From Paludibacter sp. (GTDB taxonomy: Bacteria > Bacteroidota > Bacteroidia > Bacteroidales > Paludibacteraceae), in NCBI GenBank assembly GCA_028692715.1, contig JAQUWU010000032.1, forward strand, positions 1 through 58,552: a DNA stretch of 58,552 nucleotides, written 5' to 3'. The position numbers and the translations under genes were made by a program. The notes beneath the pieces were generated by a model. The model saw only the letters and a program-made list of their open reading frames with translations. It made no database searches and had not been told where the DNA came from. Numbering within the stretch: position 1 is the first letter of the stretch; every line of letters begins with the position of its first letter. Below, one piece after another: positions 5,136 to 55,005 of this stretch.

Positions 5136-5891
5136 ATGAATATTAAAAGACTCTCTTTCTTAGCATTTATAATAGTTTCACTCTCTTCCTGCTCTCATAA
5201 ATCCTGGGTGTTAATTCAAGCTACTTCCACAAAAATTGCCATCGACAGTACCACCGAAAAACTGGCTGACAAACAGTACGAAGCGTACCTTCAGCCGATT
5301 AAACAAAAAATTGACACAGAAATGAATGTGGTTATCGGACGTGCTGCCGAAACGATGAGCGGTCATGCTCCCGAAAGTTTGCTGTCAAATTTTTGTTCGG
5401 ATGTATATAAAATTGCAGCTTCTGATTTTTTGAATGAAAAAATAGATATTTCGATTGTAAATTTGGGCGGTCTACGTACAATAATTCCTGCAGGTGAAAT
5501 CAGAGTAGGAAAAATATTCGAAGTAATGCCTTTTGAAAATGAATTAGTTATTCTATGGCTTAAAGGCGATAAATTATTGGAATTATTGCAATATTTTGCT
5601 CGTGCAGGAGGCGAGGGAGAATCAGGAATCAGAATGATTATTGATAATGGCAAAGCGGAAGATATATCAATAAACGGTGAAATTATAAATCCCGAAAAAC
5701 TGTATAGTATAGCTACCAACGATTATCTTGCCGGAGGTAACGATAAAATGACTCAATTGGCTCAATATAAAAAAAGAATAAATACAGGACTTAAAATTAG
5801 AAATGTATTGATTGATTATATTAAATCCGAAACTGAAAAAGGAAATCTTATCCAATCGAAACTGGATGGGAGAATTACCCCTAACCTCTAA
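5136..5891 (+). CDS. 5'-nucleotidase C-terminal domain lipoprotein
   Basis: 251 aa. Residues 1-19 are a lipoprotein signal (hydrophobic run then SLSSCS lipobox, Cys19). The rest is the substrate-binding C-terminal domain of UshA/CpdB-type 5'-nucleotidases: NLGGLRTIIPAGEI, FEVMPFENELV and IATNDYLAGGNDKM are its typical segments. It contains no metallophosphatase domain; that is supplied by the next gene 67 bases downstream. Together they probably hydrolyse nucleotides at the cell surface or in the periplasm. The stop codon and last residues (ITPNL) fall in the first copy of a dispersed palindromic repeat, which may have replaced the original C-terminus. Confidence 0.85.
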   Translation: MNIKRLSFLAFIIVSLSSCSHKSWVLIQATSTKIAIDSTTEKLADKQYEAYLQPIKQKIDTEMNVVIGRAAETMSGHAPESLLSNFCSDVYKIAASDFLNEKIDISIVNLGGLRTIIPAGEIRVGKIFEVMPFENELVILWLKGDKLLELLQYFARAGGEGESGIRMIIDNGKAEDISINGEIINPEKLYSIATNDYLAGGNDKMTQLAQYKKRINTGLKIRNVLIDYIKSETEKGNLIQSKLDGRITPNL

Positions 5892-6024
5892 GAACCCCTA
5901 GCCCCTAAAGGGGAACTGAAATTAGTATCATCAAAGATAATCTCAATTATAAATTAATATGAAAACTCAAAATAGAAATTTAGGAGACAAAAGTAACTCT
6001 AGTTCCCCTTTAGGGGTTAGGGGT
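5877..6024. repeat. Palindromic repeat doublet 1 (inverted pair)
   Basis: Copy A at 5894-5917 (ACCCCTAGCCCCTAAAGGGG plus AACT) and copy B at 6001-6024 are inverted with one mismatch over 24 bases. A partial third unit lies at 5877-5890. Each copy holds the palindromic core CCCCTAAAGGGG. Copy A abuts the stop of the nucleotidase C-domain gene. Copy B is inside the next gene and is translated as SSPLGVRG. Related doublets occur at 10494-10587, 25198-25329, 53597-53679 and 54888-55005. Confidence 0.85.
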
Positions 6025-6849
6025 CTGTTTTTCATTATTCTCTTTTTTTCTTTTACCGTTTTTGCCGGACAAAAAGTAAAGCTTGTGATACTTCACACCA
6101 ATGATACGCATAGTCAGGTAGAACCAACGGATAAAAACGCATCGAAAAATGCCAATCTGGGTGGTTATGCCCGTCGCATGGGTGAAATAGCGGAAATTCG
6201 CTCCGAAGAAAAAAATGTGTTGCTTCTCGATGCCGGCGATTTTTCGCAGGGAACTCCCTATTTCAATTTTTATAACGGCAGGGTAGAAATGGACGCCATG
6301 AATCGTATGAAATACGATGCTATAACGCTTGGAAATCACGAATTTGATAATGGAATAGATACGTTAGCAACAATACTGAAAAAGGCAAAATTTTCCATTG
6401 TTAGTTCCAATTATACTTTCGAAAATTCTTTTTTAAAGACAAAAGTAAAGCCTTATATAGTAGTGGTTAAAGGAGGTGTCAGAATAGGAATTATGGCCTT
6501 GGATATTAATCCAAAAGGACTTATTATTGAGGATAATTACAAAGGATTGCAGTATGATGATCCAATAGAAACGGCTAACGACATTTCGTCCCTTTTAAAA
6601 CGAAAAGAAAAATGTGATGTTATCATTTGTTTGTCGCATTTAGGTGCTGATACCAATACTCAGGATGTAAACGATTATGAAATTGCTCACAAAACCCGTT
6701 ATATTGATGTTATTATTGGTGGTCATTCGCATAGTATGATTACTGATACAACAGAAAAAAATGCTGCCGGAAGACCGGTAGTTATTGCACAAATGGCGAA
6801 AAGTGGTTTGTATTTGGGGCGAATTGAACTTGAATTTGAGAAAAAATAG
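5959..6849 (+). CDS. Metallophosphatase (5'-nucleotidase N-terminal domain), secreted
   Basis: 296 aa. The calcineurin-like metal-binding motifs of UshA-type 5'-nucleotidases are intact: LHTNDTHSQ, DAGDFSQGT, LGNHEFDNG, CLSHLGAD and GGHSHS. The catalytic domain is separate from the substrate-binding domain, which is encoded just upstream, so the usual order is reversed. The N-terminus is unusual: residues 15-22 (SSPLGVRG) are encoded by a palindromic repeat copy. They are followed by the hydrophobic signal core LFFIILFFSFTVFAG, so the repeat now provides the basic part of the signal peptide. No internal ATG offers an alternative start before the catalytic domain. Confidence 0.88.
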   Translation: MKTQNRNLGDKSNSSSPLGVRGLFFIILFFSFTVFAGQKVKLVILHTNDTHSQVEPTDKNASKNANLGGYARRMGEIAEIRSEEKNVLLLDAGDFSQGTPYFNFYNGRVEMDAMNRMKYDAITLGNHEFDNGIDTLATILKKAKFSIVSSNYTFENSFLKTKVKPYIVVVKGGVRIGIMALDINPKGLIIEDNYKGLQYDDPIETANDISSLLKRKEKCDVIICLSHLGADTNTQDVNDYEIAHKTRYIDVIIGGHSHSMITDTTEKNAAGRPVVIAQMAKSGLYLGRIELEFEKK

Positions 6850-6901
6850 AATGATTATTCGCAACATGTCCTAATCCCTTTTAAAAGAACTCATACAATA
6901 C

Positions 6902-7145
6902 AATAGTTCGTTATAAAATTTTATTTTTCAACGCAAAGGCGCTAAGATGCTAAGCCGCCAAGAAAAACTTCAAGTTTTTCTCTTTGCGTTCTTTGCATAT
7001 ATATTTGAAGTACTGTATATTACAAAATTATTATGCTTAGTGTTCTTTGCGTTTAATTAAAAAAAATATATTTGATATTTTCAAAGGCTTAATCGTTTTA
7101 ATTGCCTGAATACTAAACTAATAAATTGTTTTATAACGAACCATT
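6902..7145. mobile_element. MITE-like element with 17-bp terminal inverted repeats
   Basis: AATAGTTCGTTATAAAA at 6902-6918 and its inverse (AATGGTTCGTTATAAAA) at 7129-7145 differ at one base and bound 244 bp with no gene. Inside are ACGCAAAGGCGCTAAG near 6931, a hairpin GAAAAACTTCAAGTTTTTC, and two CTTTGCGTT-type motifs near 6982 and 7043. These resemble the ACGCAAAG-type repeats common in bacterial intergenic DNA. No obvious target-site duplication is seen, so transposition is inferred from the ends only. Confidence 0.55.
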
Positions 7146-7435
7146 GACAATATAAACTCTTTTTTTTTCTAAATTTAAATATTTTTCATTAAATGTAGAG
7201 CCATAAATTTCACAGATTTATAAAATTATAAACTTGTATTTTAGTCTAATTCGTGGTTTAATAGCAATTTTACATTAAAATATGCCAATTCATTGAATTT
7301 TGAGGTTTAGTGTAACTTTTATTGTTAATTATTAAAAACATAAATTGGTTTAACGATTTGAGCTCGTTCCGTTAAAATCTTGTAAAGTGCAAGTAAGCAA
7401 GCACAACCTATAGTTTATTAATCGTGAAAAAAATC
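7146..7435. other. AT-rich intergenic DNA
   Basis: No gene. TTTCACAGATTTATAAAA near 7208 and CTAATTCGTGGTTTA near 7246 look like eroded dispersed repeat sequence. Only the promoter before the barrel protein at the right end can be supported. Confidence 0.4.
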
Positions 7436-7443
7436 TATCTTTG
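7436..7443 (+). promoter_or_regulatory. -7 element for the barrel protein gene
   Basis: TATCTTTG, 33 bases upstream of the ATG at 7477. No clean -33 element. Confidence 0.5.
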
Positions 7444-7476
7444 CACACAATTAATAAAAAATATCACTGAAATAAC

Positions 7477-8115
7477 ATGAAAAAAACCTTTAGATTCCGG
7501 TTACTTGTTGCATTGTTGGGATTAACGTGCATATTAAATGCACAAACTTATAGACTGGAAGTTGGTTATAACAATCCGGTTAGTTTAGGTCCAAACGTAA
7601 GTGCAACTTATTTCAATGGTATTCGTCTGGGAGGAACGGTTGAATTTGATTTGAAGGATAATTTTAGCTTACTCACCGGCGTTTTATACAATATTGTCTA
7701 TTCTAATAAAATACAGAAATATCCAAATTTGGACACTGTAACCTATAAAACATTGGGACATTATCTCGAAATTCCATTAAGATTAACTTATACTCTACCC
7801 ATTACAAAAAATTTGAAAGTATTTGGTTTTGCCGGGCCTAATATTAGATATGGATTGTCTCTGAATCAGGAAATTATATCAACTATGACCGATGATTTAA
7901 ATACTTTTAATAATATTGACCCAGGTAAAACGGATTTATATAAAAATTCAATTATAAACAGATTGAATCTTCAAATTGGAGCCGGTGGTGGTGTTCAGTG
8001 GAAAAAATATCAGTTGAAAGGTGGATATGATTTTGGAATTACAAATCTTAACAAAATCGATACCGGAAATTTATTCCAAAAGGGCTGGTACGCTACATTC
8101 TCTTATCAATTTTGA
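7477..8115 (+). CDS. Outer-membrane beta-barrel protein (OmpW/PorT-like small barrel)
   Basis: 212 aa with an N-terminal signal peptide ending near LNAQ (residue about 23). The remainder alternates hydrophobic and polar residues in short strands (YRLEVGYNN, FSLLTGVLYNIVY, LQIGAGGGVQWKKYQLKGGYDFGI) and ends in aromatic Phe (YATFSYQF), the usual outer-membrane barrel C-terminus. It resembles the outer membrane beta-barrel families common in Bacteroidetes. No enzymatic motif is visible. It is monocistronic with its own promoter and terminator. Confidence 0.75.
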   Translation: MKKTFRFRLLVALLGLTCILNAQTYRLEVGYNNPVSLGPNVSATYFNGIRLGGTVEFDLKDNFSLLTGVLYNIVYSNKIQKYPNLDTVTYKTLGHYLEIPLRLTYTLPITKNLKVFGFAGPNIRYGLSLNQEIISTMTDDLNTFNNIDPGKTDLYKNSIINRLNLQIGAGGGVQWKKYQLKGGYDFGITNLNKIDTGNLFQKGWYATFSYQF

Positions 8116-8142
8116 AATTATATTATCTAAGAAACAATACTT

Positions 8143-8175
8143 AAAAGCTAAACCAATTCGAGTTTAGCTTTTTTC
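8143..8175 (+). terminator. Terminator after the barrel protein gene
   Basis: AAAAGCTAAAC at 8143-8153 pairs with GTTTAGCTTTT at 8162-8172, followed by more T. Confidence 0.75.
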
Positions 8176-8219
8176 ATTAATATTATAACCATTATACCTT
8201 TATTTCATAGGATTATGAT

Positions 8220-8227
8220 TATTTTTG
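8220..8227 (+). promoter_or_regulatory. murF -7 element
   Basis: TATTTTTG, 34 bases upstream of the murF ATG. The -33 element is weak. Confidence 0.45.
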
Positions 8228-8261
8228 CATAAATTTCTGTTTACAATAATAAATCGTTTCC

Positions 8262-9560
8262 ATGCAATTATATTCCATTTTTCTCAAACATCCCGAAATT
8301 TGTACCGATAGTCGTGTTTGTCCTGAAGGTTCAATATTTTTTGCCCTTAAGGGTGAAAATTTTAATGCGAATGCATTTGCATTATCGGCTGTAGAAAAAG
8401 GTTGTTCGTATGCAGTGGTGGATGAAAAAGAATTTGCCATTGATGAGCGTTTTATATTTGTAGATAATGTGCTGGAAAGCTTACAAAGACTGGCTACTTT
8501 TCACCGTCGACAGCTTGGCACTCCGGTGATAGGAATTACCGGAACAAACGGAAAGACCACAACAAAAGAGCTTATAGCCACTGTTCTGAAAGAAAAATAC
8601 AATATTCTTTTTACTCAGGGGAATTTAAATAATCATATCGGAGTTCCGTTGACTTTGCTTAAACTTAAACCCGAACATGAAATTGCCATTGTCGAAATGG
8701 GGGCAAATCATCCGGAAGAAATCAGAGAATTGTGTGAAATAGCACGACCCAATTTTGGAATTATCACCAATGTAGGTAAAGCACATCTCGAAGGGTTTGG
8801 TTCGTTTGAAGGTGTAAAAAAGACTAAATCAGAATTGTACACTTACATTTTTAGAAACGGGAAAAATATTTTCATCAATAAGGATAACAAGCATTTGGTG
8901 CAAATGGCTATGAATGTCGGTTTCGATTTGGGAAAAGAAAATGTTTGTGATTTTGGTTTTAATCCGGATTATACTGTTTTTGGGAATATAATAAGTTGCT
9001 CACCATTTCTGGAAATGGAATGTATAATAAAACAAACAGAATCTTTCAACATAAAAACGAATCTGATTGGTGCTTACAATGCTGAAAATATATTGACGGC
9101 AGTGGCTATTGGCACTTTTTTTAAACTGAAAAACGAAGATATAAAACGTGGTCTTGAAGATTATATTCCACAAAATAACCGTTCGCAACTAACTATTACT
9201 GAAAAGAATAAACTTGTTGTGGATGCTTACAATGCCAACCCAACCAGTATGAATGCTGCCATTTTAAATTTTGCACAAATGGAAGTGACTCATAAAACAC
9301 TAATTTTAGGTGATATGCTGGAACTGGGCGAACAAAGTGAGATTGAGCACCAAAATGTAGTGGATTTATTACAACAAAAAGACTTTGTAAACGTTTTGTT
9401 GGTAGGAAAACAATTTAAAAATACCAACCATCCATTTCACTGTTTTGAAAATGTTGATGAGTTGATTTCTTTTATCGGACAAAATCCGTTAAAAGATAAT
9501 TATATTTTAATAAAAGGGTCGAGAGGAATTCGACTTGAAAAAGTGATTGCATCACTATAA
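8262..9560 (+). CDS. murF: UDP-N-acetylmuramoyl-tripeptide--D-alanyl-D-alanine ligase
   Basis: 432 aa cytoplasmic Mur ligase that adds D-Ala-D-Ala to the UDP-MurNAc tripeptide in peptidoglycan synthesis. The N-terminal substrate domain has TDSRVCPEGSIFFALKGENF. The ATP-binding loop GITGTNGKTTTKE is at about residues 91-103. NHIGVPLT, EMGANHPGEI-like EMGANHPEEI, and later VVDAYNANPTSMNAA are hallmarks of MurF rather than MurC/D/E. Length is normal. It stands outside a dcw cluster in this window, which is common in Bacteroidetes. Confidence 0.95.
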   Translation: MQLYSIFLKHPEICTDSRVCPEGSIFFALKGENFNANAFALSAVEKGCSYAVVDEKEFAIDERFIFVDNVLESLQRLATFHRRQLGTPVIGITGTNGKTTTKELIATVLKEKYNILFTQGNLNNHIGVPLTLLKLKPEHEIAIVEMGANHPEEIRELCEIARPNFGIITNVGKAHLEGFGSFEGVKKTKSELYTYIFRNGKNIFINKDNKHLVQMAMNVGFDLGKENVCDFGFNPDYTVFGNIISCSPFLEMECIIKQTESFNIKTNLIGAYNAENILTAVAIGTFFKLKNEDIKRGLEDYIPQNNRSQLTITEKNKLVVDAYNANPTSMNAAILNFAQMEVTHKTLILGDMLELGEQSEIEHQNVVDLLQQKDFVNVLLVGKQFKNTNHPFHCFENVDELISFIGQNPLKDNYILIKGSRGIRLEKVIASL

Positions 9561-9605
9561 ATGTGCATTAATTTCGGTTCAATATCCGATTAATAATTCT
9601 TAAGA

Positions 9606-10493
9606 ATGAAAAAAAACACCATATTCATTATTATAACTGTAATAGTATTAATTGCTTTAGCGATTGCTGTAATATATTTTGCAAAACAAAATAAGCAAAA
9701 AGAGCAGGAAATGACCGAAATGGTCGAACAAATGAATTTCGAAAAGGAACAAATTGAAAAAGATTATTCCGATTTAACGCTAGATTACGATGGTTATACT
9801 ACGAACATAAAAAATGACTCCCTAGTTCAATTATTACAGGATCAGAAAAATAAAGTTCAGCAATTACTGGATGAGTTGCGGGTTACAAAATCGACTAATG
9901 CCCGACGTATTGCAGAGTTAAGAAAAGAGTTGGCAACCGTAAGATCGGTTATGATTCAATATGTAAATCAAATTGATTCGCTTAATTCACTGAATAAAGT
10001 ACTGAAAACTGAAAATGTAGAAGTGAAAAAGAAATATCAGGCTGCTACAGAAACAGTTCAGCAATTATCCAAAGAAAAACAATCCTTGAACGAAGTGGTG
10101 AATCGTGCTTCCATACTGGAAATTACAAATTTCAGTATGGTTCCTTTAAATAGTAAAAATAGAAAGACAACATGGTTTTCGCAAACAGCTAATTTGCAAT
10201 TTAATTATACAATTTCAAAGAACATTACGGCTACCCCCGGTGAAAAAATAATTTATTTGAGAATTACCAGACCAGATGATGATGTACTTACTAAAAATCC
10301 GGATAATGTTTTTCGTTACGAAAACAAGGATATAACCTATTCTGCATCAAAAAAAATAGAATATACCGGTGAAGCCATTCACGATGCACTTTACTGGAAA
10401 GTAGGCGAAATTTTACCAAAAGGAAACTATCGAGCAGATTTTTTTGCCGATGGAAACCGTATTGGTAGTTTTAGTTTTGTATTTGAAAAATAA
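9606..10493 (+). CDS. Membrane-anchored coiled-coil protein of unknown function
   Basis: 295 aa. Residues 5-26 form one transmembrane helix (FIIITVIVLIALAIAVIYFA). Residues about 30-165 are a long charged coiled coil with heptad spacing (KQKEQEMTEMVEQMNFEKEQIEK, then RIAELRKELATVR). A C-terminal globular beta domain follows (about 170-295; EITNFSMVPLN, YLRITRPDDDVL, GNYRADFFADGNRIGSFSFVFEK). Similar architecture is seen in uncharacterised Bacteroidetes proteins sometimes labelled SMC-like; there is no ATPase motif. It follows murF by 45 bases and may be co-transcribed with it. Its stop codon touches palindromic repeat doublet 2. Confidence 0.7.
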   Translation: MKKNTIFIIITVIVLIALAIAVIYFAKQNKQKEQEMTEMVEQMNFEKEQIEKDYSDLTLDYDGYTTNIKNDSLVQLLQDQKNKVQQLLDELRVTKSTNARRIAELRKELATVRSVMIQYVNQIDSLNSLNKVLKTENVEVKKKYQAATETVQQLSKEKQSLNEVVNRASILEITNFSMVPLNSKNRKTTWFSQTANLQFNYTISKNITATPGEKIIYLRITRPDDDVLTKNPDNVFRYENKDITYSASKKIEYTGEAIHDALYWKVGEILPKGNYRADFFADGNRIGSFSFVFEK

Positions 10494-10587
10494 ACCCCTA
10501 ACCCCTAAAGGGGAATCTGGTTTGTTTTTTTTAAGGAAATAGAAATAAATAGTTGTAAATTTTAATTCCCCTTTATGGGTTAGGGGT
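10494..10587. repeat. Palindromic repeat doublet 2 (inverted pair)
   Basis: Copy A at 10494-10516 (ACCCCTAACCCCTAAAGGGG plus AAT) and copy B at 10565-10587 (ATTCCCCTTTATGGGTTAGG plus GGT) are inverted with one mismatch. The pair fills the spacer between the coiled-coil gene and lutB and could fold into a long hairpin in the read-through transcript. Confidence 0.85.
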
Positions 10588-10597
10588 AATAGGTTAT

Positions 10598-11974
10598 ATG
10601 TCACAGGCACATAAATTCACTCACGATGCAAATGCAATCGCATTCGATGAACGACATCGGAATACGATTAAATTCAATATTTCGCGTTATAATGCGGCTG
10701 TGAGCAGAGGAATGGCACGTTATAACAACCTTGAAAAGGCCAAGATACAGGCCGCAGCTATTAAGCGTGATGTGCTGGAAAACTGGGGCGATTATTTGCT
10801 CCAATTTGAAAAAAATATCAAAGCGCATGGCGTAGAAGTGCTTTGGGCAAATGATGCCGCTGAAGCAACTTCATATATTGAAAGTATATTAAAAGAAAAT
10901 GATGCAAAATTGCTGGTGAAAAGTAAATCGATGACCACAGAGGAAATTGAATTGAATCACACAGCTGAAAAAAATGGGTGTGAATCGGTAGAAACTGATT
11001 TAGGTGAATTTATAGTACAGCTTGCAGGCGAAAAACCATATCATATCGTTACACCTGCTATGCACAAATCAAAAGGGGATATTGCGAAATTATTCAATGA
11101 AAAATTTGGAACTGCTATTGAAAGTACACCTGAAGAAATGACTGAATATGTTCGTCAGGTTTTGCGAAAAAAATATACTCAGGCCGAAATTGGTGTTACT
11201 GGAGCTAATTTTTTGATTGCAGATATTGGTGGAATTTCGGTTACCGAAAACGAAGGAAATGGGTTAATGTCAACGGCTTTTCCGAAAGTGCATATTGTCA
11301 TTGCCGGAATTGAAAAAATTATTCCAAAAATGAGTCAGTTAGGGTTGTTTTATCCTTTGTTGGCAGCGCACGGTACGGGGCAGCAAATGACTGCTTACAA
11401 TACAATTTTTACTGGTCCAAGGCAATCGAAAGAAGTGGATGGACCTGAAAAAATGATTGTCATTTTGCTCGACAACGGTCGTACAAATGTGTATAAAGAT
11501 GATGAAGCTTACGAATCGTTGGCTTGTATCCGTTGTGGAGCATGTCTGAATGGTTGCCCTGTTTATAAAACAATTGGAGGATATACCTACGATACGACTT
11601 ATAGCGGCCCTATTGGTTCTGTATTGACCCCATTTTTAAGGGGGTTCAAAGATTTTTCTCATTTGAGTTTCGCTTCTTCACTTTGTGGGAAATGTGTAGA
11701 AGTTTGCCCTGTGAAAATTCCTTTGACAGATATTTTATTGAGCAACAGACGAAAAACTGTTGAACAAAATTTACGCCCCCTGTCTGAAAAAATTATAATG
11801 TCTGGATTCAAATTTATTAGTTCAAAAAGAGCAAGATTTGATTTTTTTTCATCGTTAATAAAAAATATTGGAACCTATCCGTTTAATTTTGCCGGTTGGG
11901 GTCCAAAAAGGGAAATGCCTAAATTCGCAAACAATTCTTTTTCAAAACAATATAAAAATAAAACAGAAAAATAA
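10598..11974 (+). CDS. lutB: Lactate utilisation iron-sulfur protein LutB
   Basis: 458 aa. The first ~300 residues are the LUD domain (LLVKSKSMTTEEIELN, GVTGANFLIADIGG, ITVTENEGN-like SVTENEGN). Two ferredoxin-type motifs follow: CIRCGACLNGCP and CGKCVEVCP, giving sites for two 4Fe-4S clusters. LutB works with LutA and LutC in oxidation of L-lactate to pyruvate. Neither lutA nor lutC is in this window, so either they are elsewhere or this protein has a different partner. The start lies 11 bases after palindromic repeat copy 2B. Confidence 0.9.
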   Translation: MSQAHKFTHDANAIAFDERHRNTIKFNISRYNAAVSRGMARYNNLEKAKIQAAAIKRDVLENWGDYLLQFEKNIKAHGVEVLWANDAAEATSYIESILKENDAKLLVKSKSMTTEEIELNHTAEKNGCESVETDLGEFIVQLAGEKPYHIVTPAMHKSKGDIAKLFNEKFGTAIESTPEEMTEYVRQVLRKKYTQAEIGVTGANFLIADIGGISVTENEGNGLMSTAFPKVHIVIAGIEKIIPKMSQLGLFYPLLAAHGTGQQMTAYNTIFTGPRQSKEVDGPEKMIVILLDNGRTNVYKDDEAYESLACIRCGACLNGCPVYKTIGGYTYDTTYSGPIGSVLTPFLRGFKDFSHLSFASSLCGKCVEVCPVKIPLTDILLSNRRKTVEQNLRPLSEKIIMSGFKFISSKRARFDFFSSLIKNIGTYPFNFAGWGPKREMPKFANNSFSKQYKNKTEK

Positions 11975-11995
11975 ATTATATAATAATCAACAAAC

Positions 11996-24052: not shown

Positions 24053-24124
24053 ACTAATCAACCAATCAACCAATTAACTAATCAACCAATTAATCAATCA
24101 GCTAATCAAGTAATCAACCAAATA
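24053..24124 (+). repeat. Nine in-phase copies of a degenerate 8-bp repeat
   Basis: Starting at 24053 the sequence reads in units of eight: ACTAATCA, ACCAATCA, ACCAATTA, ACTAATCA, ACCAATTA, ATCAATCA, GCTAATCA, AGTAATCA, ACCAAATA. The consensus is AC(C/T)AATCA. The array ends three bases before the alcohol dehydrogenase ATG, so it occupies the ribosome-binding region of that gene. A change in copy number would alter the leader. Confidence 0.85.
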
Positions 24125-24127
24125 ACA

Positions 24128-25189
24128 ATGACAATTAAATCAAAAGCAGCTTTTTTGCCGGGAAATAGCACAGTAGTAATAAAAGAGGTAGAATTCCCTA
24201 TGCCCGGACATGGTGAAGTTCTTATCAAAATGAAATCGTCCACCATTTGTGGAAGCGATATTCGTGCCATTTATCGTGAACATTTAGGTAAAGGCCCAGA
24301 AGGTTATCAAAATAAAATTTGCGGTCACGAACCTTCCGGTCAGATTATTTCATGTGGCCCGGGAATGAGACGATTTAAAGAGGGTGACCGTGTGGTAGTA
24401 TACCATATTTCAGGTTGTGGTTGTTGTAACGACTGTCGTCGTGGCTATATGATTTCCTGTAAAAGTCCATCTCGTGCAGCTTACGGTTGGCAACGCGATG
24501 GTGGTATGGCAGAATACATGGTGGCCGAAGAAAAAGATCTTGTTCTATTGCCAGACAGCCTGACTTATACCGATGGTGCGCAGATTGCCTGTGGTTTTGG
24601 AACTGTTTATGAAGGATTGGAAAAAATTGGAATTAGTGGAAACGATGCTGTGTTGGTGACAGGTTTAGGCCCTGTTGGTTTAGCTGCTTTGATGCTTGCT
24701 AAAGCTATGGGTGCAGAAAGGTTGATTGGAGTTGATACAGTTGCTGAACGTTGTGAGATTGCGAAAAAATTAGGATTAGCCGACGAAGTTTACGTTTCAG
24801 GTGATGATACGCTGGAAAAAGTAATGGCAGAAACAAATGGAAGGGGATTTGAAAAAACGGTTGATTGTTCAGGGCATACGCTGGCTCGTCAACTTTGCAT
24901 TCGGGCTACTCGTCAATGGGGAAAAATGGTTATGATTGGCGAAGGTGGTACAGTGGAATTTAATCCAAGTCCTGACATTATTCACGATCAAAAAACGATA
25001 TATGGTTCATGGGTAACTTCAATATGGAAAATGGAAGAATTGGTTGAACGGATTGTTCGCTGGGGTATACATCCAGAGGATTTGGTTACACATCGCTTTA
25101 CCCTGGATCATGCTCCCGAAGCTTTTGCTTTAATGGCAGAAGGTAAATGTGGTAAAGTGGCAGTTGTATTTGACGAAGAAATTAAATAA
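24128..25189 (+). CDS. Zinc-dependent medium-chain alcohol dehydrogenase
   Basis: 353 aa. Catalytic zinc ligands are in TICGSDIR (Cys about 38) and CGHEPSG (His about 65). The structural zinc site is complete as CGCCNDCRRGYMISC. The NAD(P)-binding loop GLGPVGLAALMLAKAMGA is in the middle. It is a sorbitol/threonine dehydrogenase-type MDR enzyme. Its position between fucU and fucP suggests it oxidises fucose or reduces or oxidises a C3 product such as lactaldehyde; the sequence does not choose between these. Translation start is directly behind an 8-bp tandem array. Confidence 0.85.
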   Translation: MTIKSKAAFLPGNSTVVIKEVEFPMPGHGEVLIKMKSSTICGSDIRAIYREHLGKGPEGYQNKICGHEPSGQIISCGPGMRRFKEGDRVVVYHISGCGCCNDCRRGYMISCKSPSRAAYGWQRDGGMAEYMVAEEKDLVLLPDSLTYTDGAQIACGFGTVYEGLEKIGISGNDAVLVTGLGPVGLAALMLAKAMGAERLIGVDTVAERCEIAKKLGLADEVYVSGDDTLEKVMAETNGRGFEKTVDCSGHTLARQLCIRATRQWGKMVMIGEGGTVEFNPSPDIIHDQKTIYGSWVTSIWKMEELVERIVRWGIHPEDLVTHRFTLDHAPEAFALMAEGKCGKVAVVFDEEIK

Positions 25190-25197
25190 AGAAAGCG

Positions 25198-25329
25198 CAC
25201 TAACCCCTAAAGGTGGAAATTAATATTAGTATTGACTATTTTAATAAAATATTTATATAATGATGAAGAAAGAAAAGAATAAACCAGACGATGGTGACTT
25301 TAACTCTCCCTTTAGGGGGGTGGGGGGCC
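25198..25329. repeat. Palindromic repeat doublet 3 (diverged)
   Basis: Copy A at 25198-25221 (CACTAACCCCTAAAGGTGG...) and copy B at 25302-25329 (AACTCTCCCTTTAGGGGGGT...) are inverted relative to each other and share the CCCTAAAGG-type core, but have diverged more than doublets 1 and 2. Copy B lies inside the aldo/keto reductase gene. Confidence 0.65.
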
Positions 25330-26336
25330 ATTTGCAAACAATAAATCCTTCATTTGTACCTTTTAAAACCCTTTATACCGGCGCAAAAATCCCGGTAATT
25401 GGTTTAGGTACATTTGGTTCCGATAATTACGATGCAGAAACCATTGCGCAAGCGGTTAAAACGGCTATCAAAATGGGCTATCGTCATATCGATTGTGCTT
25501 CGGTGTATGGAAATGAGAAAGAAATCGGTCTGGTTTTAAAAGAAGTTATATCTGAAGGAATTGTGACACGCGATGAACTTTGGATTACTTCTAAAGTTTG
25601 GAACGACAAACACAAAAAAGTAGTTGAATCCTGCAAACAAACGCAGGAAGATTTACAACTCGATTATTTGGATTTGTATCTGGTTCACTGGCCTTTTCCA
25701 AACTTTCATCCACCTAAATGCGATGTAAATACTCGTCAGGATGATGCTGTGCCTTATATTCACGAAAATTACATGAACACATGGCGACAAATGGAAAGTT
25801 TGGTTGCAAATGGTTTGGTGAAAAATATTGGAACCTCAAACATGACCATTCCTAAAATGAAATTGTTACTTCGTGATTGTAAGATAAAACCTGTTTTGAA
25901 TGAAATGGAGATTCACCCTCATTTTCAACAAACCGAATTATATAATTTTATGAAAGAAAACGGTATAGAAGTGATTGGTTATAGTCCTATTGGCTCTCCG
26001 GGTCGTCCTGAACGTGACCGTACTCCGGAAGATACTGTTGACATGGAAGACCCTGTTATTGTTGCTGCAGCTGAGCGACTTGGTGTTCATCCTGCCGTGG
26101 TTTGTCTGAAATGGGCTGTTCAGCGTGGACAAATCACTATCCCTTTTTCTGTCAAAACGGACAAAATGTATAATAATTTAAAAGGCATTACCGAAGGTCC
26201 GCTTACAAATGCAGAAATGTTGGCAATTTCAAAAATTGATAAAGGTTGTCGCTTAATAAAAGGTCAGGTTTTCTTATGGAATGAAGCAAAAAATTGGGAA
26301 GATCTTTGGGACTTGAATGGAGAAATAACTGCCTAG
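25260..26336 (+). CDS. Aldo/keto reductase with a repeat-encoded N-terminal extension
   Basis: 358 aa. The AKR core starts near residue 35 (FKTLYTGAKIPVIGLGTFG). The catalytic tetrad is visible: Asp and Tyr in HIDCASVYGNE, Lys in WITSKVWND and His in YLVHWPFP. The cofactor end (ITIPFSVKTDKMYNNL) is present. It resembles aldose/xylose-type reductases using NADPH. The ~34 residues before the core contain NSPFRGVGGH (residues 15-24), encoded by a palindromic repeat copy. No internal ATG precedes the core, so the insert is probably translated. It belongs to the fucose locus; the substrate is unknown. Confidence 0.83.
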   Translation: MMKKEKNKPDDGDFNSPFRGVGGHLQTINPSFVPFKTLYTGAKIPVIGLGTFGSDNYDAETIAQAVKTAIKMGYRHIDCASVYGNEKEIGLVLKEVISEGIVTRDELWITSKVWNDKHKKVVESCKQTQEDLQLDYLDLYLVHWPFPNFHPPKCDVNTRQDDAVPYIHENYMNTWRQMESLVANGLVKNIGTSNMTIPKMKLLLRDCKIKPVLNEMEIHPHFQQTELYNFMKENGIEVIGYSPIGSPGRPERDRTPEDTVDMEDPVIVAAAERLGVHPAVVCLKWAVQRGQITIPFSVKTDKMYNNLKGITEGPLTNAEMLAISKIDKGCRLIKGQVFLWNEAKNWEDLWDLNGEITA

Positions 26337-47294: not shown

Positions 47295-47321
47295 AAACCA
47301 AATAAACGCAAAATTCGAAAC

Positions 47322-48790: not shown

Positions 48791-49384
48791 ATGGAAAATC
48801 TAAATCAATTAACCGATGACGAATTGGTGAAATTGTATGGACAAGGAAATAATCAGGCGTTTGAAATTTTATTGATACGTTATAAGTCCAAAGTATATAC
48901 ATATATATACTTAATTGTTCGTAACAGAGAACTCACCGAAGATATTTTTCAAGACACCTTTATTAAAGCAATTGCTACCATTCAACAGGGACGTTACGTT
49001 GAGTCAGGTAAGTTTGTGGCATGGATTAACCGCATCGCACACAACCTGATTATCGATTATTTCCGTAGGGAAAAAAACGAAAATACATTCTCGGCAGATG
49101 CTGTTGATTATGATATAGTGAATAATGCAAAACTCTCGGAAAAGAGCATCGAGGATACTATGTCGAACGAACAGGTACTGGCCGATGTTGTACATTTGAT
49201 TGATTTGTTGCCCATTTCACAGCAAAAGGTGATTCGTATGCGCTATTTCGAAGATTTAAGTTTTAAGGAAATTGCCGAACGAACAAATGTAAGCATTAAT
49301 ACGGCTTTAGGGCGAATGCGTTATGCATTGCTCAATATGAGACGCATTGCTGTCGAAAATAACGTTTATCTTGAAATAAAATAA
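48791..49384 (+). CDS. ECF-type RNA polymerase sigma factor
   Basis: 197 aa with region 2 (LIRYKSKVYTYIYLIVRNRELTEDIFQDTFIKAI) and region 4 (LPISQQKVIRMRYFEDLSFKEIAERTNVSINTALGRMRYAL). There is no region 1 or 3, and no anti-sigma factor gene with a membrane helix next to it, so it may be an ECF of the kind regulated by its own promoter. A small gene follows 127 bases downstream and may be its partner. Confidence 0.9.
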   Translation: MENLNQLTDDELVKLYGQGNNQAFEILLIRYKSKVYTYIYLIVRNRELTEDIFQDTFIKAIATIQQGRYVESGKFVAWINRIAHNLIIDYFRREKNENTFSADAVDYDIVNNAKLSEKSIEDTMSNEQVLADVVHLIDLLPISQQKVIRMRYFEDLSFKEIAERTNVSINTALGRMRYALLNMRRIAVENNVYLEIK

Positions 49385-49511
49385 ATAAAAAATCCATTAA
49401 CAAACAAAAGGTTAATTAGTTAGAAGTAGAAAAAATATTTTTGTGCATATATACTATTTTTTAAACTTATACGTTTTATAAATATCACTATAAAAAAATT
49501 ATAAGTTGCCT

Positions 49512-49691
49512 ATGCAAAAAAATTCTACTTTATTAAAAAAAACTGATTTGTTGACTGAAAAAAAAACACTTGAAATAAACGCTGATTTGCAACCAAGTGC
49601 AAATACTATTCAGAATATACTCCAATTTGCCTCTTCTTACAGAGCACAAAAAATAGCAAATAATCAGTTCGTTGAATGGTTTGTAAATTAA
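49512..49691 (+). CDS. 59-aa conserved small protein next to the sigma factor
   Basis: ATG at 49512 (the frame has a TTG two codons upstream). The product begins MQKNSTLLKKTD and ends IQNILQFASSYRAQKIANNQFVEWFVN. Its C-terminus resembles short proteins encoded downstream of an ECF sigma factor in other Bacteroidales (P-s-a-x-T-I-x-x-I-L-x-F-A-x-S-Y pattern, from memory). It is soluble, without cysteines or membrane helices. A terminator follows. It may be an unrecognised regulator or partner of the sigma factor. Confidence 0.7.
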   Translation: MQKNSTLLKKTDLLTEKKTLEINADLQPSANTIQNILQFASSYRAQKIANNQFVEWFVN

Positions 49692-49692
49692 A

Positions 49693-49729
49693 AAAAAAGA
49701 CTTCAGGATTATCTGAAGTCTTTTTTTAT
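49693..49729 (+). terminator. Terminator after the 59-aa gene
   Basis: AAAAAAGACTTCAG pairs with CTGAAGTCTTTTTT across a 6-base loop, ending in T; A- and T-runs on both sides make it able to act in both directions. Confidence 0.85.
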
Positions 49730-49772
49730 TATATTTGCATATTAAAAAAAACATTCAAAAAAAATATAGATT

Positions 49773-50423
49773 ATGACTCGTATCATCTCTCCATCTTTAT
49801 TATCTGCCGATTTTGGAAACCTGAAGGCCGATTGCGAAATGATTAATTCCAGCGAAGCAGAATGGTTACACATTGATGTTATGGATGGAAGTTTTGTCCC
49901 TAATATTTCTTTTGGTTTTCCTGTTATGGAAGCGCTAAAAATGCATTGTACAAAACCGCTTGATGTGCATTTAATGATTGTACATCCCGAAAAATATATT
50001 AAACGTTTTGCCGAAGCAGGGGCGGGGATTATTACTTTTCATTACGAAACGGTTGATAATCCATTAGAAGTCATTGAGATGATTAAAGCGGAAGGAGTAA
50101 AAGTGGGGATTACAATTAATCCGGATGTGCCTGTTAGTGTTCTCGAACCTTTTGTCGACAAAGTAGATTTGGTGCTTTTAATGACTGTTTTCGCCGGTTA
50201 TGGAGGACAAAAATTTATTGAAGAAAGTTATTCTCGAATTGCAGAGCTAAGAAAAATGATCGATCAAAAAAATGCTCATTGTGTGATTGAAGTGGATGGT
50301 GGCGTAAATATAAATAATGCCCGCAAACTTTTTGATACGGGAGTAAATGTGTTGGTAGCCGGTAGCGCTGTTTTTAAAGCAGAAAATCCTACGAAAATGA
50401 TACATGATATGCTAAACACCTAG
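49773..50423 (+). CDS. rpe: Ribulose-phosphate 3-epimerase
   Basis: 216 aa TIM barrel. Typical segments: SPSLLSADFGNL, HIDVMDGSFVPNISFG (metal-binding His/Asp), DVHLMI, ITFHYE, LLMTVFAGYGGQKFI and VDGGVNINNARKLFDTGVNVLVAGSAVF. Converts ribulose 5-phosphate to xylulose 5-phosphate in the pentose phosphate pathway. comEC starts 3 bases after its stop, so they are co-transcribed. Confidence 0.96.
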   Translation: MTRIISPSLLSADFGNLKADCEMINSSEAEWLHIDVMDGSFVPNISFGFPVMEALKMHCTKPLDVHLMIVHPEKYIKRFAEAGAGIITFHYETVDNPLEVIEMIKAEGVKVGITINPDVPVSVLEPFVDKVDLVLLMTVFAGYGGQKFIEESYSRIAELRKMIDQKNAHCVIEVDGGVNINNARKLFDTGVNVLVAGSAVFKAENPTKMIHDMLNT

Positions 50424-50426
50424 CCT

Positions 50427-52487
50427 ATGAATTTTCTGCAACGAACTCCTTTTTTCAGATTGTTGTTGCCGTTGGTTATTGGCATCATTTTATACCGATA
50501 CTTCGATTTATTCCCTTGGAGTCAGATGTCTATGCTGATTTTATCGGTTTTAATATTTGCTGTAAGTTTTGTTCTTCAACGTTCAAAATTGCAATTTAAA
50601 TTTCGCTGGCTTTATGGCAGTGGAATTTTTTTGTTTCTAGTAATTATCGGCTATTCTATTTCTAATCAGAACGCAACAAAAAGTAATTTTGATAACATCG
50701 AAATTCCCGGAATCTTTAGTGTCGAACTTACAGAGTCGCCCATTGAAAAAGAAAATTCCTTTTTGTGCCGGGTGAAAACACTTCAATATTTTGAAAAGGA
50801 TAAATCCACAAATTCTGTTGGTAGAGCATTAGTATACATCCAAAAAGATAGTTTGTCGCAGAAATTAAAATCGGGTGATCAGTTATTGATTGAAACTACT
50901 TTTAACAAACCCGATGGTGTTATAAACCCAGCTGGGTTCAATTATAAGGAATATCTAAAAAGGCAAGGTATTGCTGCAACAACTTATATCCCGGGTTATA
51001 AGTGGACTAAAATCGGCACAAACAAAGAATTCTCTGTTTTTCGTTTAGCCGAAGAATATCAGAAAAAACTGTTGGATATTTATAAGCATTTTGGAATTGA
51101 CGGGGATGAGTTTGCAGTTTTAGCAGCATTGACCCTGGGAAGTAAAGATGCTTTACACCCTGAGTTAAGACAAAACTATACAACCAGTGGTGGAATGCAT
51201 ATTTTGGCCGTAAGTGGTTTGCATGTGGGAATTATTTATATGGTATTGAGTCTGTTACTTTCAGTTTTAGACAAAAACAAACATACTAAAATTTTGAAAG
51301 TCATATTGATAATTCTACTCCTGTGGATATATGCATTTATAACCGGGCTTCCGCCTTCTGTGGTTCGAGCAACAATTATGTTTTCGATGATTGCTTTAGG
51401 GAATGGATTGAATCATAAAAGTGAAATTTACAATACTATTTTTGCTTCAGCTTTTTTAATGTTGCTCTTCAATCCCGATTTCCTTTTTGATGTCGGATTT
51501 CAATTGAGTTATTGTGCTGTTTTAAGCATTGTATATTTTCAACCCAAAATATCAAAAGGTTTATATTTCAAGAATAAATTGTTGAAGTGGAGTTGGGATC
51601 TGACAGCTGTTTCATTGGCTGCTCAAATAGGAACAGCTCCGCTAACATTGTTTTATTTTCATCAATTTGCAAATTATTTCGTAATTACGAACTTTGTAGC
51701 CATTCCTTTTGCAACCATTATTCTTTATACAGCAATACTTTTAATTATTGTTTCGCCGATTGCATTCGTTTCAACTGCTGTTGCATTCGTATTGAAATGG
51801 ATATTAAGAATATTGAATACAAGCATTGAATTTATTCATGATATGCCATTTTCAGTGACTTTTACAACTATCAATGCCATTCAGGTGTTATTGTTCTTTG
51901 GTATAGTAATTCTGATAGCCTATTATTTTCACAGCAAAAAATATTTTGCAATTTTCAGTGCGTTTTCATTGTTGCTATTCTTTTTGATCATCAATTTGAC
52001 CATCAATTATAAAACCTTAAATTCAACACAATTTATAGTTTATTCAGATTATCAAAATACTCATATAGATTTTATTGCAGGGAAAAATCACGCAGTATTA
52101 ACAACTGATAGTGTAGCTCTTAATAAAGTCGCTCAAAATTATTGGTTAAAAAATAAATTAAATTATAAAAAGGAGGTTCTTTCAGCCTGTATCCTCTCAA
52201 ACGGATTTATCGATTTTCAGGGGAAACGGTTTTGTATATTGCTTGATGAATCGCTAAAAGGAAAAATATCCGAAAATCCAATAGATGTTGATTATCTGAT
52301 TATCGCAAATCATGTTAAACCACATTTTGATAAATTATTGGAAAGTATCCATCCGCAAAAGGTGGTAGTAGATAAAAGCATTTCAAAATGGTATGCTGAC
52401 AATATTGAGCAAACATGTGTTGAGAAAGGAATAAGATATTATTCGGTTGCCCAAAAAGGAGCTTTTATCTTGAATCTTAAAGATTAA
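50427..52487 (+). CDS. comEC: ComEC/Rec2-family DNA uptake channel protein
   Basis: 686 aa with many membrane helices. The N-terminal DUF4131 (about 45-190) is followed by the competence domain, with the characteristic MHILAVSGLHVGIIYMVLSLLL and ITGLPPSVVRATIMFSM. The last ~170 residues are soluble but lack clear metallo-beta-lactamase motifs, as is usual in Bacteroidetes versions. ComEC forms the inner-membrane channel for DNA uptake; natural competence is not implied by this gene alone. Confidence 0.9.
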   Translation: MNFLQRTPFFRLLLPLVIGIILYRYFDLFPWSQMSMLILSVLIFAVSFVLQRSKLQFKFRWLYGSGIFLFLVIIGYSISNQNATKSNFDNIEIPGIFSVELTESPIEKENSFLCRVKTLQYFEKDKSTNSVGRALVYIQKDSLSQKLKSGDQLLIETTFNKPDGVINPAGFNYKEYLKRQGIAATTYIPGYKWTKIGTNKEFSVFRLAEEYQKKLLDIYKHFGIDGDEFAVLAALTLGSKDALHPELRQNYTTSGGMHILAVSGLHVGIIYMVLSLLLSVLDKNKHTKILKVILIILLLWIYAFITGLPPSVVRATIMFSMIALGNGLNHKSEIYNTIFASAFLMLLFNPDFLFDVGFQLSYCAVLSIVYFQPKISKGLYFKNKLLKWSWDLTAVSLAAQIGTAPLTLFYFHQFANYFVITNFVAIPFATIILYTAILLIIVSPIAFVSTAVAFVLKWILRILNTSIEFIHDMPFSVTFTTINAIQVLLFFGIVILIAYYFHSKKYFAIFSAFSLLLFFLIINLTINYKTLNSTQFIVYSDYQNTHIDFIAGKNHAVLTTDSVALNKVAQNYWLKNKLNYKKEVLSACILSNGFIDFQGKRFCILLDESLKGKISENPIDVDYLIIANHVKPHFDKLLESIHPQKVVVDKSISKWYADNIEQTCVEKGIRYYSVAQKGAFILNLKD

Positions 52488-52560
52488 CACCGGAATGGGT
52501 TAACTCCAATTAGAATTCTTTTTTTTTTGTTACTTTTGCATTCAATTTAAACCCAGATAA

Positions 52561-53589
52561 ATGATTTCAAAAATTATTCCGGAAGAACTAATTCATAAGG
52601 TTCAAAAACATATTTCAAATGCAGAACGTATAGTTATTGTTGTTCATGTAGGACCTGATGGAGATGCTATGGGATCTTCACTCGGATTATGGCATTATTT
52701 AATGACTTTGAATAAGGAGCCTGTAATTATAGTTCCAACTGCTTATCCTGATTTTTTATCGTGGATGCCAGGGTCGGAATGTGTAATGGTTTATGAAGAA
52801 AATAAAGAAACATCTGAAGAATTTCTCGCAGGTGCAGATTTAATTTTTGCATTGGATTTTAATGATCCAAAACGAATGGGTAATTTGTCTGATGCTGTTA
52901 TGGCAACCACAGTGCCTAAGATTTTGGTAGATCACCATTTACATCCTTCCGATTTTGCAGATGTTGTGATTTCTCTTCCTGAGTTGTCTTCTACGAGTGA
53001 GTTAATCTTTCGGTTAATCTGTCGATTGGGCGATTTTTCCAAAATCAATCTTGCCGGAGCTGAATGTATTTATACAGGAATGATGACTGATACGGGTGGT
53101 TTTACATATAATTCCAACAAACAGGAAATTTATACTATTATCTCCGAATTAATAAAACTTGGTGTTGATAAAGACGATATATATCGTAAGGTTTTCAATA
53201 CCTATTCGGCTGACAGATTGCGTTTAATGGGTTTCTGTCTGTATAAAAAAATGAAAATTTATCCAGAATACAAGGCTGCTTTAATTACACTTACGGCAAA
53301 AGAATTGTCCATGTTTAATTTTAAAAATGGTGATTCTGAGGGGTTTGTGAATATTCCATTGTCAATTGAAGGAGTTGATTTCTCGGTATTTATGCGTGAA
53401 GATAATGAGAGAATTAAATTATCATTCCGTTCACAAGGAACTTTTCCGGCCAACAAAGTAGCTACAGACTTGTTTAATGGAGGCGGACATTTAAATGCAG
53501 CAGGAGCTGAGAGTTCTGCTTCCATGTCAGACACGGTAGCTAAATTCGAAGACGCACTGGAAAATTATAAAGATTTTCTTGAAAAATAA
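52561..53589 (+). CDS. nrnA: DHH-family phosphoesterase, NrnA-type oligoribonuclease/pAp phosphatase
   Basis: 342 aa. DHH motifs: VVHVGPDGDAMGSSLGL (motif I), ALDFNDPKR (II), ILVDHHLHPSDF (III, DHH) and GMMTDTGGF (IV). The C-terminal DHHA1 domain ends with FNGGGHLNAAGAESS. NrnA degrades short RNA oligonucleotides and pAp using Mn2+. The stop codon is 7 bases before a palindromic repeat copy. Confidence 0.93.
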   Translation: MISKIIPEELIHKVQKHISNAERIVIVVHVGPDGDAMGSSLGLWHYLMTLNKEPVIIVPTAYPDFLSWMPGSECVMVYEENKETSEEFLAGADLIFALDFNDPKRMGNLSDAVMATTVPKILVDHHLHPSDFADVVISLPELSSTSELIFRLICRLGDFSKINLAGAECIYTGMMTDTGGFTYNSNKQEIYTIISELIKLGVDKDDIYRKVFNTYSADRLRLMGFCLYKKMKIYPEYKAALITLTAKELSMFNFKNGDSEGFVNIPLSIEGVDFSVFMREDNERIKLSFRSQGTFPANKVATDLFNGGGHLNAAGAESSASMSDTVAKFEDALENYKDFLEK

Positions 53590-53596
53590 TGACCCA

Positions 53597-53679
53597 AAAC
53601 CCCTAATAGGGCTTTAAGAGGTTATTTACATATTTTTATTTACAATATAAAACAAATCCCCCTTTAGGGGTTAGGGGTT
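53597..53679. repeat. Palindromic repeat doublet 4
   Basis: Copy A at 53597-53621 (AAAACCCCTAATAGGGCTTT...) is a diverged unit, and copy B at 53655-53679 (AATCCCCCTTTAGGGGTTAG...) is a good match to the family in inverted orientation. Copy B ends at the base immediately before the ATG of the apgM-like gene, so it replaces the normal ribosome-binding region. Confidence 0.75.
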
Positions 53680-54885
53680 ATGAAATACTTAATTATACTT
53701 GGTGATGGAATGGCCGATGAGCCTATTGCGTCACTTGGAAATAAAACTTGCCTACAGGCAGCTAATAAACCAAACATTGATAAAATTGCGGCTTTAGGTC
53801 GCAGTGGTTTGCTCGATACAATTCCCGAAGGTTTTGCTCCGGGAAGTGAAATAGCAAATCTAAGTGTTATGGGTTATGATGTGCCAAAAGTTTTCGAGGG
53901 TCGTGGATCATTAGAAGCAGCAAGCATGGGCGTGAAAATTGAACCGGGAGAAATGGCTATGCGCTGTAACCTGATTTGCATTGAAAATAGTAAAATAAAG
54001 AACCATTCCTCTGGACATATCAGTAATGAAGAAGCCGAAGAACTGATTCTTTTTTTGCAAAAAGAACTTGCTAACGACATAGTTAGCTTTTATCCCGGTG
54101 TCTCGTACCGTCATTTGCTAAAAATGAAGGGTGGCAATAAAAGTTTAATCTGCACACCTCCGCATGATGTTACAGGGACTCCATTTGCTGATGTAATGAT
54201 TCAAGCGTCAACACCCGAAGCTCAGGAAACGGCCGATTTGTTGAATGCTTTAACGTTGAAATCACAGCATTTGCTTGAAAACCATCCGGTAAATCTTAAA
54301 CGTGCAGTTGCAGGTAAAGATAAAGCAAACAGTATTTGGTTATGGTCGCCGGGTTACAAACCTGATATGAAGACACTTTTAGAACTTTACAATTTGAAAA
54401 GTGGAGCAGTGATATCGGCGGTAGATTTAATTAAAGGAATTGGCGTATATGCAGGACTAAAGGTGATAGAAGTAGAAGGAGCAACCGGACTTTACAATAC
54501 AAATTACGAAGGGAAAGCTCAAGCAACTATTGATGCATTGCGCGAAAATGATTTTGTTTATCTGCATATTGAAGCCAGCGACGAAGCCGGACACGAAGGT
54601 GATGTAGAATTGAAAATTAAAACGATAGAATATCTAGATTATAGAGTAGTAAGACCAATTTTTGATGAAGTGTCAACATGGGACGAACCGGTTACTATTG
54701 CCATTCTGCCCGATCATCCAACGCCTTGTGTATATAAAACACATACAAGGTCTCCAATTCCATTTGTAATTTATCGTCCGGGTGTGTCTCCCGATGCAGT
54801 AACCGTTTATGACGAATTTGCAGCCGAAAAAGGAAGTTATGGTTTGTTGAAGGGAATGGAGTTCATGAAAGAATTGATAAAATAA
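53680..54885 (+). CDS. ApgM-like phosphoglycerate mutase superfamily protein, probable homoserine kinase analogue
   Basis: 401 aa of the archaeal-type cofactor-independent phosphoglycerate mutase (alkaline phosphatase superfamily). Metal and nucleophile motifs: LGDGMADEPI at the start, PGSEIANLSVMGYD (nucleophile Ser), YLHIEASDEAGHEGD and LPDHPTP. In Bacteroidetes lacking ThrB, this gene is regularly next to thrC and is predicted to be a functional analogue of homoserine kinase. thrC follows here, separated by repeat doublet 5. A true glycolytic role is an alternative. Confidence 0.85.
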   Translation: MKYLIILGDGMADEPIASLGNKTCLQAANKPNIDKIAALGRSGLLDTIPEGFAPGSEIANLSVMGYDVPKVFEGRGSLEAASMGVKIEPGEMAMRCNLICIENSKIKNHSSGHISNEEAEELILFLQKELANDIVSFYPGVSYRHLLKMKGGNKSLICTPPHDVTGTPFADVMIQASTPEAQETADLLNALTLKSQHLLENHPVNLKRAVAGKDKANSIWLWSPGYKPDMKTLLELYNLKSGAVISAVDLIKGIGVYAGLKVIEVEGATGLYNTNYEGKAQATIDALRENDFVYLHIEASDEAGHEGDVELKIKTIEYLDYRVVRPIFDEVSTWDEPVTIAILPDHPTPCVYKTHTRSPIPFVIYRPGVSPDAVTVYDEFAAEKGSYGLLKGMEFMKELIK

Positions 54886-54887
54886 TA

Positions 54888-55005
54888 CAGCCACTAAAGG
54901 GGTATTGGGCAAGTTTCGTCTCTTATATCTTCCAATTTGATTAAATGAAATAGATTATTGAAATTATTAAAAACTAACTTAGTTCCCTTCTAGGGGCTAG
55001 GGGTT
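54888..55005. repeat. Palindromic repeat doublet 5
   Basis: Copy A at 54888-54910 (CAGCCACTAAAGGGGTATTG...) is a diverged unit; copy B at 54981-55005 (AGTTCCCTTCTAGGGGCTAG...) is in inverted orientation and ends 5 bases before the thrC ATG. Confidence 0.7.

Follow-up and report, generated by a model that had tools for sequence, protein, structure and literature searches.

Several kinds of palindromic repeats that lie between or within bacterial genes have been described, and, as far as the excerpts of the sources cited here go, the nearest to the family reported below are REPIN/BIME, ERIC/RU, and the Rickettsia palindromic elements (RPEs) (PMC3733652, PMC6006769, PMC12306157, PMC10969869, PMC2759123). 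REPINs and BIMEs are inverted pairs of REP sequences, 20–100 bp apart and of a fixed dimer type (PMC3733652); the ERIC and RU repeats of enterobacteria are mobile inverted repeats of about 100–170 bp between genes, some of which fuse open frames to genes (PMC2759123); RPEs are palindromic repeats that are translated in frame as segments within unrelated proteins (PMC10969869); and the Y1 transposases of subclass 2.6 in Bacteroidetes are described together with atypical secondary structures that are typical of the phylum and dispersed in the genome (PMC6006769). Here we analyzed a contig of 58,552 bases from Paludibacter sp. (contig C33, hereafter the window), which belongs to a genome of 4.85 Mb in 122 contigs (G000) and in which a sequence-only reading had noted five inverted doublets of a palindromic unit between genes. 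By the apgM protein, the nearest named relatives of the genome are Paludibacter and other Bacteroidales metagenome assemblies, at 85–88% identity. All five doublets were recovered, by a pattern search and, for the left arm of the fifth, by a profile. What that reading overlooked is the unity of arms and spacer: together they form a single element, which can provide the next gene with a start codon and an N-terminal leader. The doublet is probably a dispersed palindromic element of mobile type and non-coding size, located at gene joints, whose ATG can take over the initiation of the downstream gene. In the open-licence literature, which was also searched with the letters of the repeat, we found no paper describing this family.

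The core of the repeat is 19 nt long, CCCCTAACCCCTAAAGGGG, and the arm consensus is ACCCCTAACCCCTAAAGGGGAA; core matches were counted at up to three mismatches unless stated otherwise. The window has seven matches, compared with none in 100 dinucleotide shuffles, and G000 has 294, compared with none for the reversed pattern, which establishes the genome-wide enrichment that had been named beforehand as a check. Core matches were present in 43 of the 60 genomes searched (G000 counted in). In the rest of the genus (35 genomes), the number of sites per genome ranges from 0 to 513, with at least one site in 34 genomes, whereas at the level of the order only 8 of 24 genomes have matches (16 sites at most), and in a phylum-wide sample, searched at up to two mismatches, only 17 of 296 genomes do, with a maximum of nine sites outside G000. 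Because the numbers are high in the genus and low in the order and the phylum, the expansion of the core is mainly confined to this genus of Bacteroidales.

For the analysis of the doublets, we sampled stretches of G000 (1.39 Mb) and of a relative, G016 (0.58 Mb), which were picked on contigs and places with hits and not at random. These contain 98 doublets with known flanks (59 in G000 and 39 in G016; two at stretch ends were omitted), of which 91 (57 + 34) lie between co-directional genes. Successive cores no more than 250 nt apart are of a single dominant inverted type: the orders +-, -+, ++, and -- occur 61, 0, 9, and 8 times in G000 and 39, 1, 5, and 2 times in G016, or 100, 1, 14, and 10 times in sum. 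From core to core the doublets measure 74–189 bp (medians 112 and 105), and they are made up of two inverted REP-like arms around an asymmetric, A/T-rich spacer. The arms are well kept, at 1.2–1.4 mismatches per 19 nt, a figure to be read with caution, because the same similarity had been used to find them. In three pairs of doublets with unrelated flanks, the spacers align with scores of 47, 38, and 38, compared with a shuffled maximum of 21 and with 7–9 for the flanks; the last of these pairs includes the third doublet of the window, which shares its spacer with an element at G000:C37:101994 whose flanks are unrelated. Further spacer pairs score 63, 58, and 54, but the flanks there are somewhat alike. 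Since spacers are common to places with unrelated flanks, the arms and the spacer are copied as a unit; each doublet is thus one element, and at least three pairs show it copied whole. The elements at L259:2459 and L259:17527, separated by 15 kb, hardly differ in the first half of their spacers and are a candidate recent copy.

Because the arms are symmetric, the direction of an element can be read from its spacer alone. The same-sense minus opposite-sense score of the spacers is 1.54, compared with 0.13–0.54 when ordinary gaps were drawn as controls five times. A direction profile was built from 15 sense-oriented seeds and run on the other 76 co-directional doublets; the ratio of sense to antisense was 55:21 without a threshold, 15:2 at 15 bits or more (p = 0.002), and 11:1 at 20 bits or more, compared with 38:38, 1:0, and 0:0 for a swapped-spacer control at the same thresholds. 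In the window, the profile reads two of the five elements as sense (strong) and three as antisense (weaker). Element direction is therefore biased toward the sense of the genes but is not absolute, so the fixed orientation reported earlier applies to the order of the arms and not to the spacer.

We then located the elements relative to genes, which were called, together with their starts, by a simple caller made for this analysis. In four window doublets that were measured, the left arm starts 3, 1, 7, and 3 nt past the upstream stop codon, and in 76 of the 91 co-directional doublets (49/57 in G000 and 27/34 in G016) it lies −30 to +15 nt from it. At wide joints, the doublet is closer to the stop than to the start in 32 of 39 cases (19/23 and 13/16, respectively; p = 7e-5). 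The right arm is 0–25 nt ahead of the predicted start in 21 doublets of G000 and 16 of G016 and inside the downstream gene, at a depth of 42–130 nt, in 16 and 3, as it is inside the next predicted gene in window doublets 1 and 3; in 0 of 91 does it span the predicted start codon. The anchoring at stop codons described in the sequence-only reading is supported. Single copies are mostly in the C-rich sense at stops (77:6 in G000 and 42:4 in G016) and in the G-rich sense at starts (81:2 and 26:2), and 39 of 205 copies in G000 and 32 of 106 in G016 lie at a distance of over 80 nt from the nearest predicted gene boundary. The doublets do lie mostly between genes on the same strand, as had been stated, in 57 of 59 cases in G000 and 34 of 39 in G016; however, so do ordinary gaps of 50–250 nt (395/465, Fisher p = 0.014, and 151/179, p = 0.81), and a strong co-directional rule was rejected as weak in G000 and absent in G016. 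Two further ideas were discarded. The trp operon in L217 had suggested that elements cluster at successive joints of an operon; there are 3 adjacent marked pairs in 701 kb, compared with 1.9 expected (p = 0.28). A sense promoter in the spacer was searched for with the promoter motif TAnnTTTG, which occurs 6 times in sense, 11 times in antisense, and 3.4 times in shuffles.

In 29 of the 91 co-directional doublets, the spacer contains an ATG that shares an uninterrupted reading frame with the downstream gene. This predicts leaders such as MNNDKNIQDNSNSNSPLGVRG, in which the right arm reads SPLGVRG or VPLQGLGV. By predicted translation, the repeat would be read in frame as the N-terminus of unrelated proteins, and in about one third of the cases examined the start codon and the first amino acids seem to come from the element. 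Among the genes that have leaders of this kind are trpA, trpC, trpG, leuC, nadA, pstB, and murI, each of which passes the cut-off of at least one NCBIfam model whose match begins at or after the leader; trpE scores under the cut-off of its model. In the trp operon of L217, leaders are found on trpE, trpG, trpC, and trpA. As many as 20 of the 29 leader genes have no ATG within the 20 codons that follow the element. In L031 and L036, the coding stretches LTPGPSPKGEG and SPLTPLLEERGKERGK appear to represent other repeat families that are translated in frame.

Comparison between genomes revealed joints with and without the element. The leader runs directly into NRIN, with no native Met, in trpA of 5 of 30 genomes (L387, L389, L391, L393, and L410), L391 having ATA where other genomes have ATG; in the other 25, trpA begins with MNRI. 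Because no ATG follows the element in the 20 leader genes and the native Met is lost in trpA, the ATG of the element is probably in use. At the apgM-thrC joint, the empty state is a bare 0-nt ATGA overlap (L123, L126, and L138), and the filled state is a full doublet (L127, L129, L135, and L142) or a right arm (L118 and L137). On a tree of 26 genomes, the trpA leader is found in G000, G002, G026, and G034 and also in G030, which is placed apart from them; this tree was built from apgM and trpA, is thus not independent of trpA, and has several branches of low support, and in the leader listing beside it a dash covers absence and missing data alike. In other species, different palindromes, of the CCTCCCC..GGGGAGG type, occur at the same joints, upstream of apgM in L135 and upstream of trpA in L397, L400, and L404; the one in L397 contains a similar AAACTAACTT stretch.

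We propose that an element may insert just upstream of a start codon and in frame, that its ATG would take over the initiation of the downstream gene, that the native ATG would then be free to mutate, and that essential genes (trpE/G/C/A, leuC, nadA, pstB, and murI) would thereby retain the element permanently. The element would spread as a REPIN-like unit by a single-strand (HUH Y1) transposase acting in trans; spread by a trans-acting enzyme is likely. Several observations weigh against this proposal. The start positions rest on the simple caller. An open frame alone is no evidence of coding, because 282 of 675 element-free gaps are also open for at least 60 nt upstream of the called start; the open frame through the right arm in 42 of the 91 co-directional doublets was therefore rejected as a test. 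Only 9 of the 29 leader genes lack ATG, GTG, and TTG alike in the next 20 codons. The sense bias is weak without a threshold, and 22 of 118 full-length profile hits are antisense to both neighbor genes (84 are sense). Lastly, no target-site duplication was found among the 98 doublets (the best result, for k = 4, is 3/98 compared with 0.5 expected, among many combinations), and in none of 56 loci do the arms bracket a Y1 gene, so that transposition itself stays putative.

A more far-reaching version of the proposal holds that the element is specialized for joints, being anchored at stops and carrying its own ATG and a shared leader, that the host becomes dependent on it after the native start decays, and that the N-termini of many core enzymes were rewritten in the genus and, at some sites, repeatedly. 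The trpA leaders of G000, G002, G026, and G034 and, elsewhere on the tree, of G030 are the basis for repeated takeover at one site, and we regard this version as tentative and rather doubtful.

We also consider it unlikely that the family is a REPIN population whose cognate RAYT (Y1) transposase is still alive in the same genome. Of 40 genomes of the genus, 33 do have Y1 genes (154 matches in all), and the densities of elements and Y1 genes correlate in 36 genomes (Spearman 0.45, p = 0.006). The absence of target duplication also fits, as HUH enzymes are expected to leave none. However, element counts also track genome size (0.61), and G021 and G032 have 71 and 56 core sites and no Y1 match. 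Moreover, in the 56 Y1 loci examined (about 181 kb, including all seven matches of G000 and part of those in other genomes), there are only eight distinct core hits, about the genome-wide rate, and none of the Y1 genes is bracketed by the core; the dedicated mobilizing enzyme that the sequence-only reading had suggested was accordingly not recovered among them. The apgM loci set beside them, with 36 hits in 122 kb, are joints rich in elements and do not make a neutral control. Several Y1 genes similar to subclass 2.6 are instead flanked on both sides by other inverted repeats, e.g., CCCCTCGTTTGCAACGAGGGGTTAATGGT. One of these genes, at L037:1195-2180 (G000:C43, about 135200-136200), is bracketed by this palindrome of its own, and similar brackets surround Y1 genes in L281, L285, L289, and L295; this is a distinct repeat family with an apparent cognate enzyme.

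A MITE derived from a DDE insertion sequence and mobilized in trans would account for the terminal inverted repeats, the size of about 110 bp, and copying as a unit, and in-frame fusions are described for other MITEs in the excerpted source (PMC10969869); with no target-site duplication at any offset tested, this origin is improbable.

The last alternative is the classical REP/BIME (REPIN) function, in which a hairpin in the operon mRNA stabilizes or cleaves the message or couples translation and in which pairing is selected. As anticipated, the copies could form long hairpins, since all 91 co-directional doublets fold arm to arm (mean z −5.06). The left arm is within reach of the terminating ribosome and the right arm is near the start codon; in five contigs, the joints shorter than 400 nt that carry cores number 31 of 338 in the co-directional class, 2 of 42 in the convergent class, and 0 of 25 in the divergent class, although these differences rest on small numbers. 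Nevertheless, the two arms do not covary: their identity within and between doublets is 16.77 and 16.61 of 19 in G000 (4% of shuffles as high) and 17.00 and 17.00 of 19 in G016 (54% of shuffles as high). Over the inner 30 nt, similarity is lower within doublets than between them (11.0 compared with 11.9), and the transitions that keep RNA pairing via G-U number 62 in sum, compared with 64 that break it. With arms that also lie 42–130 nt inside genes, selection on an RNA hairpin, as the earlier reading had it, is not borne out; pairing was rejected as a selected property, and we judge this explanation to be quite unlikely.

The elements of the window and the genes next to them are listed in Table 1. 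In the metallophosphoesterase gene downstream of element 1, there is no ATG, GTG, or TTG in the 20 codons after the leader, and a hydrophobic stretch after the right arm is read as a putative signal peptide. Among 30 loci compared, the layout of element 1 recurs in L301, L307, and L315 and, decayed, in L299. Element 2 has its left arm 1 nt past the stop at 10493 and its right arm 11 nt ahead of the ATG at 10598. Downstream of element 3, the native start place of the aldo/keto reductase gene reads TTG CAA ACA, where the orthologues listed have ATG CAA AC.; this TTG could still act as a start. The right arm of element 4 ends 2 nt ahead of the ATG at 53680, and the profile covers only 53628-53678 (antisense, 27.8 bits). 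The left arm of element 5, just past the stop at 54885, is too decayed for the pattern search. At the Rfam gathering score, the window contains only two tRNAs, and the element was therefore rejected as a known Rfam RNA. These similar tRNA genes are in tandem on the minus strand, at 3311-3381 and 3493-3563 (58.1 and 54.2 bits), with a flanking repeat that is 86% identical. An imperfect array of 8-nt direct repeats (ACTAATCA/ACCAATCA) lies at 24053-24132, just upstream of the gene at 24128.

Table 1. Palindromic elements of the window and associated genes (positions are those of the window).
Feature	Position	Strand	Details
Gene upstream of element 1	5136..5891	+	Element 1 begins 3 nt past its stop codon
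Element 1 (full, sense)	5894..6024	+	Arms 5895-5913 and 6005-6023; spacer ATG at 5959; profile 87.5 bits
Metallophosphoesterase (Pfam Metallophos, residues 43-259)	5959..6849	+	Predicted first 22 residues, MKTQNRNLGDKSNSSSPLGVRG, from element 1
Element 2	10494..10587	-	Arms 10495-10513 and 10568-10586; profile prefers antisense, 41.8 bits
Element 3 (sense)	25197..25326	+	Arms 25197-25215 and 25307-25325; spacer ATG at 25260; profile 75.7 bits
Aldo/keto reductase	25260..26336	+	Predicted leader, MMKKEKNKPDDGDFNSPFRGVGG, from element 3
Element 4	53593..53678	-	Left arm 53593-53611 decayed (4 mismatches); right arm 53659-53677 perfect
Element 5	54889..55004	-	Right arm 54985-55003 (3 mismatches); spacer antisense; profile 41.4 bits

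If takeover of initiation by the element is right, a selfish repeat has turned into the translation start of core biosynthetic genes, and mobile palindromes are tied directly to the evolution of start codons and to lineage-specific N-terminal extensions. The joints also offer natural paired loci, the same gene in the same genus with and without the element, for testing the effects of REP-like repeats on expression, and annotators may note that leaders of the SPLGVRG or VPLQGLGV type in these genomes are repeat-derived.

How, then, does the family compare with the described systems? Much of the REP/BIME assignment stands: the unit is short, palindromic, of high copy number, dispersed mainly between genes, and anchored at stops, and its arms form inverted doublets of one dominant type. 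A GTAG (or CGTC) tag, on the other hand, is absent in column counts of the 91 doublets, the outer end being ACCCCTAACCCC. Terminal inverted repeats and copying as a unit are shared with MITEs, and a repeat that by its sequence would be in frame within unrelated proteins with RPEs. No single family name was assigned because neither the two REP hallmarks (a GTAG tag and, in the 56 loci examined, a Y1 gene flanked by the repeat) nor the target duplication of MITEs was found. Measured against the excerpted descriptions of each system, REPIN/BIME with RAYT is alike in having palindromic arms that are short and paired in inverse order, a high copy number, a location at gene junctions, and a fixed dimer type, whereas here the tag and, in the 56 loci examined, an arm-bracketed Y1 gene are lacking and a predicted in-frame N-terminal leader is frequent. 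The palindromes of subclass 2.6 are likewise dispersed secondary structures typical of the phylum, but they flank their own transposase gene, which the present family was not found to do in the 56 Y1 loci. ERIC and RU are intergenic mobile inverted repeats of similar size, some of which give fused frames; their sequence is unrelated, and the fusions here are N-terminal, recur at start codons, and coincide with the loss of the native Met in trpA. RPEs are palindromic repeats read in frame in unrelated proteins as well, but an RPE interrupts a protein, whereas the present element lies at a gene joint and would begin one. Taken together, these comparisons indicate that the family, while not a member of one named family, is a variant of the REPIN/MITE-like palindromic mobile repeats that is new in supplying start codons.

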